In this document: positions 18,769 to 20,607 of the stretch, piece by piece | Position numbering within the stretch: the stretch's first letter is position 1 | Layout of the letters: each line of letters opens with the position of its first letter | Origin: Melioribacteraceae bacterium | GTDB taxonomy: Bacteria; Bacteroidota; Ignavibacteria; Ignavibacteriales; Melioribacteraceae | NCBI GenBank assembly: GCA_026417375.1 | Contig: JAOADJ010000031.1 | Location: forward strand, 1 to 64,000 | Reading direction: 5' to 3' | Length of the DNA stretch: 64,000 bases | Translations under genes and position numbers: made by a program | The notes under the pieces: model-generated | The model's input: the letters and a program-made list of their open reading frames with translations, nothing else | Databases searched by the model: none | What the model was told of the DNA's origin: nothing

Positions 18769-19563
18769 ATGCAAAAAGTAAAACCATTAAAAAGATTCGG
18801 TCAAAATTATCTTCAAGATAAAAATACAATTCAAAAAATTGTTGATATTTTTTCTCCTAAAGAAGATGATTTAATAATTGAAATTGGACCAGGACAAGGT
18901 GCATTAACAAAATATTTAAGTGATAAATCAAAAAAATATTTTGCAATTGAAATTGATAAAAGAGTAATTGATGATTTAATAAACAATTTTCCAAATGTAA
19001 TTTTCATTAATCAAGATTTCCTTACTATAAATTTATATGAAACGGTAAAACACTTAATTTCAGAAAATTCAAAAATTAGAATTATCGGAAATATTCCTTA
19101 CAATATTACATCACCTATTTTATTTAAATTAATCGAAAACAGAAATATTATAAATGATGCTTTATTAATGACACAACATGAAGTAGCAAAAAGAATTGTT
19201 GCTAAACCAAACACAAAAGATTATAGTATTCTATCTGTTTTGCTAAATTACTTTACCACACCGGAATATTGCTTTAAAATTTCCAGAAATGTTTTTTACC
19301 CTAAACCAAATGTAGATTCTGCAATTATTAAAATTGACTTCTCAAAAAATAAAACAACTGATATTGATGATGATAAATTCATAAAAGTTGTTAAAGCATG
19401 TTTTGGAAACAGAAGAAAAACATTAAAAAATTCACTTAGTAACAGCCAATTAAAAAATATTGACCTGAATAAAATAAATTTTGATTTTTCAAAACGAGCT
19501 GAACAATTAGAAATAGAAGATTTTATCTATCTTACTAAATGCATTCAGGAATTAAGTTATTAA
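18769..19563 (+). CDS. rsmA: 16S rRNA dimethyladenosine transferase
   Basis: Also called KsgA. It dimethylates two adjacent adenosines near the 3' end of 16S rRNA during 30S maturation. The N-terminus KRFGQNYLQDKNTIQKIVD is the family signature. The SAM-binding motif is IEIGPGQGALT, and the catalytic segment is GNIPYNITSPILF. The C-terminal helical domain includes ACFGNRRKTLKNSL. Length 264 is normal. It converges with and overlaps by 12 bases the Cys-rich protein gene on the other strand. Confidence 0.96.
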   Translation: MQKVKPLKRFGQNYLQDKNTIQKIVDIFSPKEDDLIIEIGPGQGALTKYLSDKSKKYFAIEIDKRVIDDLINNFPNVIFINQDFLTINLYETVKHLISENSKIRIIGNIPYNITSPILFKLIENRNIINDALLMTQHEVAKRIVAKPNTKDYSILSVLLNYFTTPEYCFKISRNVFYPKPNVDSAIIKIDFSKNKTTDIDDDKFIKVVKACFGNRRKTLKNSLSNSQLKNIDLNKINFDFSKRAEQLEIEDFIYLTKCIQELSY

Positions 19564-19875
19564 TCCAACATCAACTTTTTTAATAGTCTCAACAATTAAT
19601 GGGAAATATCTGTCAAGAGAACAATTTGCATCTTCTCTTAAATAACAAAATTCATTATTAGAAGTTTTACAGTTTGAACAAACTTCATCACGTAATTTTT
19701 GATGATAAACCGATATTTCTTCAGTATCAACTGAATGTACAATTTGAATTATTTTTTTTAAGTAGAACTCAACAGCACAAATTTCTTGTTTAGATAATGT
19801 GCATTTTCCATCTTCATTGGAATCTACACAATATTTACAAATATTTTCTTTTATTGCTTTATAATATTTATCCAT
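19552..19875 (-). CDS. Uncharacterised protein with two Cys4 motifs
   Basis: 107 residues, function not recognised. It is an internal duplication. Repeat 1 has C13-x2-C16-x8-C25-x7-C33 followed by EFYLKKIIQIV; repeat 2 has C66-x2-C69-x7-C77-x7-C85 followed by RYFPLIVETI. Each repeat therefore joins four cysteines to an amphipathic helix, which fits a metal (zinc or Fe-S) site, but no ligand is proven. No signal peptide or membrane segment is seen, so it is probably cytoplasmic. The gene overlaps the 3' end of rsmA by 12 bases and is divergent from menG. The regular cysteine spacing argues strongly that it is real. Confidence 0.75.
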   Translation of the reverse strand: MDKYYKAIKENICKYCVDSNEDGKCTLSKQEICAVEFYLKKIIQIVHSVDTEEISVYHQKLRDEVCSNCKTSNNEFCYLREDANCSLDRYFPLIVETIKKVDVGLIT

Positions 19876-19917
19876 AAATTTGCTTTCATAATTTTAATTA
19901 AAAATTAATCAGAACAT

Positions 19918-20607
19918 ATGGAAACTCCAAATAAAAAAATAAGAGTAAAAAGAATTTTCGATTCAATATCTCACAAATATGATTTATTAAATCATCTGTT
20001 AAGTGCAGGTGTTGATTTTTATTGGAGAAAAAAAGCAATTAAATTTTCTGATATGAATCATAATTCAATTCTTTTAGATATTGCATGTGGAACAGGTGAT
20101 TTTGCAATAACGGCAAAAAAATTCGGAGTAAAAAATATTTTCGGAGCAGATCTTTCTTACAATATGCTTTCCTTATTCGCAAAAAAAGCTTATTGGATAA
20201 AAGGTAAATCAACAGAATGTGTTGCCGAATATCTTCCCTTCAAAAGTAATTCATTTACAAACATTACAGTTGCTTTTGGAGTAAGAAATTTTTTCGATAT
20301 ACCAACAGCATTTAATGAATTTAAAAGAGTATTAAAACAAAATGGTAAGGCAACAGTTTTAGAATTCCGTTTACCTGAAAATTTTATTGTTAAAAAATTA
20401 TATTTGTTTTACTTCAAAAATATATTGCCATTTATTGGAAAAATAATTTCAAAAGATCCCGAAGCTTACACTTATTTACCCGAATCTGTTGAAGAATTTG
20501 ATTCTAAAATTGATTTAAAGAAAATTTTTTATGAATGTGGATTTAGTGAAGTTAAAAAATATTCATTAACATTTGGACTTGTTCAGGTAATAATTGCTAC
20601 AAAATAA
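19918..20607 (+). CDS. menG: Demethylmenaquinone methyltransferase
   Basis: MenG/UbiE. It C-methylates demethylmenaquinone to menaquinone, the likely respiratory quinone here. The opening RIFDSISHKYDLLNHLLSAG is diagnostic. The SAM site is LLDIACGTGDFAI, followed by GADLSYNML and VAFGVRNF. The tail with LPESVEEF and FGLVQVIIATK matches the family end. Length 229. Whether it also methylates ubiquinone precursors cannot be read, but the apparent phylum uses menaquinone. It overlaps rdgB convergently by 11 bases. Confidence 0.94.
   Translation: METPNKKIRVKRIFDSISHKYDLLNHLLSAGVDFYWRKKAIKFSDMNHNSILLDIACGTGDFAITAKKFGVKNIFGADLSYNMLSLFAKKAYWIKGKSTECVAEYLPFKSNSFTNITVAFGVRNFFDIPTAFNEFKRVLKQNGKATVLEFRLPENFIVKKLYLFYFKNILPFIGKIISKDPEAYTYLPESVEEFDSKIDLKKIFYECGFSEVKKYSLTFGLVQVIIATK

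Follow-up and report, generated by a model that had tools for sequence, protein, structure and literature searches.

The locus considered here raises the question of what kind of protein is encoded by a short open reading frame in which two sets of four cysteines, spaced as in a metal site, follow one another. The window, that is, the whole stretch of 64,000 nucleotides analysed (Melioribacteraceae bacterium, assembly GCA_026417375.1, contig JAOADJ010000031.1), comes from a genome of 2.8 Mb in 58 contigs. The original prediction, made from the letters of the window, described a tandemly duplicated four-cysteine protein of no named family, with a possible metal site in each repeat.

A conserved gene with two related halves

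The open reading frame lies on the reverse strand at 19552–19875 (ATG start, stop codon included) and encodes a protein of 107 amino acids. As originally described, it is found beside menG and rsmA and is divergent from menG, which was confirmed by the positions of the reading frames and by NCBIfam matches to both neighbours. The menG gene (demethylmenaquinone methyltransferase; 19918–20607, forward strand; TIGR01934, E 1.1e-68) shares with it a divergent intergenic region of 42 bp (19876–19917), and rsmA (18769–19563, forward strand; TIGR00755, E 2.5e-77) is convergent, overlapping the 3′ end of the frame by 12 bp. This frame is a real, conserved gene: its dN/dS is 0.08 against the closest relative and 0.23–0.30 against four of six other relatives, the remaining two values not being computable. 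The protein of a same-genus genome (G005) is 86% identical.

Read from the sequence, the cysteines of the window protein fall at residues 13, 16, 25 and 33 and at 66, 69, 77 and 85. Thus the double C-x2-C-x7/8-C-x7-C pattern previously reported was resolved into an x8 spacing in the first half and x7 in the second, and the two proposed metal sites, both on the reverse strand, are C13-x2-C16-x8-C25-x7-C33 (19777–19839) and C66-x2-C69-x7-C77-x7-C85 (19621–19680). From the structural model and the alignment of the halves, repeat 1 (residues 3–50; 19726–19869, reverse strand) comprises a helix, the four-cysteine loop and a second helix, and repeat 2 (residues 56–103; 19567–19710, reverse strand) a helix, the loop and a C-S-L-D-R-Y-F helix. 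When the halves were compared with hhalign, 48 columns were aligned with a probability of 99.2 and a score of 77.6, and none of 200 controls in which the non-cysteine columns were shuffled and the cysteines kept fixed reached that score (mean 12.9, standard deviation 3.8, maximum 23.8). The claimed tandem duplication is therefore not an artefact of cysteine spacing, since the likeness of the halves exceeds it.

Conservation and loss of the cysteines

Lack of cysteine conservation in orthologues had been named beforehand as an observation that would tell against a metal site, and the opposite was found. All eight cysteines, and with them both proposed sites, are invariant across 30 aligned sequences, the window protein included, as are Y4, A7, D18, S19, E31, A34, L79, N84, D88, R89, Y90, I94 and D102. 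An iterative profile search of the retrieved loci yielded, after three rounds, 185 matches, corresponding to 122 distinct domain sequences and to 80 members at 70% non-redundancy, among which 75 keep all eight cysteines. The exceptions lose them by unit: half 2 is without all four in L144:929, L157 and L161:9059 and without three in L148, half 1 being intact in each case, and two of the half-1 cysteines are gone in L167, where half 2 is intact. Loss of exactly one cysteine was seen in none of the 80. Near-complete loss in one half with the other intact is the pattern expected of independent four-ligand sites and supports the view that each half would behave as its own metal site. Most members are acidic (pI below 6 in 73 of the 80), and no export signal was seen when the protein was inspected by eye.

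Searches against known families and the probable metal

The protein belongs to an uncharacterised, unnamed bacterial family and not to a known one. No significant match was found in Pfam for the window protein or 50 members, in NCBIfam for the family, in PHROGs (six members) or PADLOC (four members), or among PDB sequences, which bears out the earlier statement that no named family carries this repeat. A literature search in which the protein was not sought by name found no paper on it, which does not prove absence, and a search by cysteine spacing returned mostly plant B-box papers among the matches listed. The AlphaFold2 model (43 sequences; pLDDT 72.6, pTM 0.62) contains four helices, at residues 2–14, 29–48, 54–71 and 88–102, and its cysteines are placed where helices end and in the two loops that join helix 1 to helix 2 and helix 3 to helix 4. 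The helix expected after each four-cysteine unit is present in this model (29–48 and 88–102), and another precedes each unit (2–14 and 54–71). Foldseek gave no match to the model at E ≤ 0.001, and the best VIA-align Z of 5.5 falls, by the guidance of that tool, where common arrangements of helical models also score, so that no convincing relative was obtained; with its moderate pLDDT, the predicted structure is too weak for a claim of a new fold.

Two metal sites of some kind are very probably present, as the cysteine conservation and unit-wise loss suggest, and the bound metal is probably iron–sulphur. The best-surviving alternative is that of a structural zinc protein, whose halves would be small zinc units for protein–protein or nucleic-acid contacts and would have no redox role. 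Four invariant cysteines per unit also suit zinc, and in an excerpt of PMC6165416 the B-box zinc motif is given as C-x2-C-x8-C-x7-C-x2-C-x4-H-x8-H, the first four ligands of which have the same spacings as in this family. However, the remaining part, C-x2-C-x4-H-x8-H, is absent from the window sequence, which has no significant profile match, and the zinc-finger models of Pfam and NCBIfam gave chance-level matches only, to one or two members each. Additionally, the redox-operon neighbourhoods described below give no reason to expect a zinc finger. The zinc explanation is thus considered unlikely, with a chance that is still appreciable, and iron–sulphur is retained as the preferred reading of the two sites.

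Distribution within the class

Matches at E ≤ 0.01 were obtained in 43 of 97 related genomes, its own included, 41 of them strong and two doubtful (E 0.0077 and 0.0096). When 391 genomes sampled from the class were searched with the close-clade profile, 113 of them contained members (E ≤ 0.001), and one genome, G553, gave four matches. In the single phylum-wide sample of 296 genomes, class included, 27 matched at E ≤ 0.01, every one inside the class and one of them a poor match containing stops, and no relatives were found outside the class. The sole scan of the whole collection used motifs taken from the close clade, and relatives may therefore exist in other phyla. A tblastn search of plasmids with two members as queries gave no match.

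The menG neighbourhood in the close clade

Of 42 loci in the close clade, 39 were scored as having menG as the divergent neighbour. The gap between the two genes is 20–133 bp in 38 of the 42, and in one more the called frames overlap by 22 bp; in L041 and L050 the called menG frame overlaps the family gene by more than 60 bp, and L032 is cut off by the end of its contig. On the side away from menG, a PAP2-superfamily gene, identified by Pfam on one representative, was the nearest of the four scored gene clusters in 31 of the 42 loci, and rsmA in ten. In the window, rsmA abuts the family gene directly, in the place that the PAP2 gene occupies in those 31 relatives.

Among 57 genomes of the family to which the window belongs, menG was found in 56, CcmF in 54 and the four-cysteine gene in 34; when only good-quality genomes are considered, menG and CcmF are each present in 44 of 44 and the four-cysteine gene is missing in 16. 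Since genomes without the gene retain menG and CcmF, those pathways do not require it. In the 11 non-carriers inspected, out of 23, the gene before menG is co-directional with it and ends at most 12 bp before it or overlaps it; by eye this gene is PAP2-like in ten, and another long frame is called in L195. These arrangements, where menG follows straight after the upstream gene, indicate that its adjacency to the four-cysteine gene is one inherited position and thus weak evidence of function, and the linkage was downgraded as a functional clue. In carriers, the antisense family gene separates menG (19918–20607 in the window; compare L195–L221) from the upstream operon. Considering the direct junction in the 11 non-carriers, menG presumably has its own promoter in carriers. 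A promoter scan around the intergenic region found three sites against 4.7 expected, which is uninformative.

Redox operons of the divergent relatives

The operons of divergent relatives are more telling than the menG linkage. Outside the order of the window, 65 loci, a chosen subset of the matches, hold 72 family genes, four of these loci (L129, L138, L139 and L179) being of the close, menG-linked type. Neighbours were defined as genes on the same strand within 400 bp, and their names come from the Pfam matches of a single representative in each cluster. By this definition, the neighbours include NifJ-type pyruvate oxidoreductase (POR; eight family genes in six loci), Kor/Vor gamma (six genes in five loci), cytochrome b (seven), CcmF (seven), Rieske (six), hemerythrin (six), acetyl-CoA hydrolase/transferase (six) and radical SAM proteins (five). 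The family gene sits between Rieske and cytochrome b in L136, L140, L142, L155, L160 and L166, with overlapping called frames in L155. When kinship is ignored, POR/Kor, CcmF or bc neighbours accompany 29 of the 72 family genes and 14 of 154 control frames (80–250 amino acids, at least 2 kb off in the same loci), and a wider redox set, counted likewise without regard to kinship, accompanies 42 of 72 and 14 of 154; the other 30 family genes lack any redox-set neighbour.

Where a genome carries several copies, these tend to belong to separate redox operons, a pattern expected of partner-specific subunits. The copies of G614 are found in Rieske/cytochrome b, POR and acetyl-CoA transferase operons (L160–L162), those of G572 in Kor and cytochrome b operons (L127, L140), and two consecutive family genes lie downstream of Kor/Vor gamma in L125–L127. 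In a phylogeny of these 80 members, for which few columns were available and the bootstrap was unsettled, the POR label occupies ten rows with seven changes, at least five of them forced by starred branches, and these may be gains or losses; the label is also clustered, since only one of 500 shuffles gave as low a value. The bc label requires two changes only, which means that the bc loci go back to a small number of independent events; the CcmF label, with two rows, is uninformative.

Other small proteins occur in these loci. Between Kor/Vor gamma and the family gene, a second one of about 86–130 amino acids is encoded in L126:6106-6378, L127:7077-7337, L132:5989-6381 and L164:3635-3937, with three cysteines in its initial part and another within an RD-x-C-x-YP motif; the copy tested, that of L126, has only a sub-cut-off match to DUF4320. 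An 87-amino-acid type of protein without a Pfam family adjoins the family gene in L105, L143, L162 and L176 (L176:5452-5712), and these loci also carry acetyl-CoA hydrolase/transferase. Degenerate copies retaining the first four-cysteine unit only (L104:3982-4335, L144:926-1405 and L161:9098-9451) lie on the opposite side of the NifJ-type POR gene from the intact copy, and in all three loci are followed by a gene that is epimerase-like by eye.

These neighbourhoods also bear on whether the protein could be an iron–sulphur redox or oxygen sensor regulating adjacent operons, which in the window would act on the divergent menG promoter. The short divergent gap to menG in nearly all close relatives, and the fact that copies adjoin different redox operons, would suit a regulator. 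However, no DNA-binding domain was recognised by Pfam in the window protein or 50 members, and the presence of a same-strand neighbour within 400 bp in 65 of the 72 genes, and at 30 bp or less or overlapping in 35, agrees with a gene that belongs to an operon and not with a divergent regulator, so that this explanation is improbable. A thiol/disulphide or metal-delivery protein, donating for example iron, haem or iron–sulphur to Rieske proteins, cytochromes or hemerythrin without being a stable subunit, is marginally less probable still, because, although Rieske, CcmF and hemerythrin genes are among the neighbours, POR/Kor is the most recurrent enzyme-neighbour label on the tree and the cysteines of a unit are retained jointly or for the most part lost jointly, in contrast to those of a single CxxC redox pair.

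Proposed function

The preferred reading is that of a protein with two [4Fe-4S] clusters that would act on particular redox enzymes as an accessory or electron-transfer partner, a proposal whose chances we consider evenly balanced. The gene, its duplication, the invariant cysteines with their loss by unit, and the operon associations are observed, and the metal, the type of cluster, the partner and the mechanism are inferred. Most likely, each four-cysteine unit would hold one [4Fe-4S] cluster between two helices, and the protein would serve the assembly or stability of particular redox enzymes or exchange electrons with them. In several lineages the partners would be 2-oxoacid:ferredoxin oxidoreductases, and in others Rieske/cytochrome b or the cytochrome c maturation system. 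Against this reading, the cysteine spacing equals that of the first four zinc ligands of the B-box, menG and not a ferredoxin-dependent enzyme adjoins the gene in the lineage of the window, and the similarity to LRV_FeS, considered below, stays under the cut-off and is absent for half 1.

A bolder version, which is tentative and on balance somewhat doubtful, would see here a new two-cluster iron–sulphur fold, made of a helix, a C-x2-C-x8-C-x7-C loop and a helix in duplicate. By paralogy, it would have spread within one class as a modular redox subunit or assembly factor that is specific to its partner and has entered POR/Kor, bc-type and cytochrome c maturation operons, and derivatives with one cluster would lie next to NifJ-type POR and hemerythrin genes. 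Provided that the clusters are real, the family would be an unannotated iron–sulphur family tied to respiratory complexes and to enzymes of low-potential electrons, and present in separate operons as multiple copies per genome. It would also provide a new cysteine signature for annotation libraries and a candidate component for the 2-oxoacid oxidoreductase and bc-type operons of the class, and its natural one-site and two-site forms could be compared directly.

Comparison with known systems

LRV_FeS (PF05484; 1LRV) is the N-terminal [4Fe-4S] domain of leucine-rich-repeat-variant (LRV) proteins, described in Pfam as an FeS4 cluster domain. Weak matches to it were obtained for five of 50 members at E ≤ 0.1 (best E 0.011), and the scores of 13.9 bits in L092, where the match covers all four half-2 cysteines, and of 10.5 bits in L176 do not reach the gathering cut-off of 27; the window protein gave no row at E ≤ 10. 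Three of four LRV-type plasmid sequences were used for further comparison, L193 being left out because its cysteine stretch looks incomplete. Both groups have four cysteines starting with C-x2-C, and two of the three LRV proteins also share the first-to-fourth span of 20 residues. Gly-x-Cys at the third cysteine is common to the family and two of the three, and C-A-x-D-R-Y at the fourth occurs in one (L191, C-A-H-D-R-Y), most half-2 sequences of the family being C-x2-C-x8-C-x7-C with the fourth cysteine starting C-[AS]-L-D-R-Y. On the other hand, the LRV spacing is C-x2-C-x10-C-x5-C (x12 in one) instead of x8 and x7, the LRV repeats (PF01816) of these proteins were matched neither in the 107-residue window protein nor in the family, and the unit is duplicated in the family, unlike LRV_FeS. 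In profile–profile comparison with the three sequences, half 2 scored 16.3, with four of 200 shuffles as high, and for half 1 as many as 75 of 200 shuffles were as high. This resemblance may thus be a weak lead towards an iron–sulphur cluster and does not amount to membership. The three plasmid LRV genes adjoin nifZ, and two are annotated as 4Fe4S-binding. Further LRV_FeS matches, within the class (L180–L183) and on plasmid pBPHY02 (L188), seemed on reading to be due to chance and were set aside.

The 2[4Fe-4S] ferredoxins (Fer4) likewise have eight cysteines in two units, and the family resembles them in being mostly acidic and in adjoining POR/Kor in some genomes. The ferredoxin motif is C-x2-C-x2-C-x3-C, which is absent from the window sequence, and no Fer4 match was found for the window protein or 50 members.

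A parallel in size and organisation is offered by the HiPIP-like accessory subunits of glycyl radical enzymes, HPAD gamma, BSS beta/gamma and MASS beta/gamma, which are small and, like the family, carry units of the form C-x2-C-xn-C-xn-C, in their case binding [4Fe-4S]. The cysteines of MASS beta (32, 35, 51 and 86) are spaced unlike those of the family, which had no significant match to a PDB chain, and no glycyl radical enzyme was found among the recurrent neighbour clusters that were annotated. According to an excerpt of PMC12358834, the small subunit of 4-hydroxyphenylacetate decarboxylase, to which no known function is assigned, holds two [4Fe-4S] clusters and aids the soluble expression of its partner. 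By analogy, this subunit could serve as a working model for the mode of action of the four-cysteine protein.
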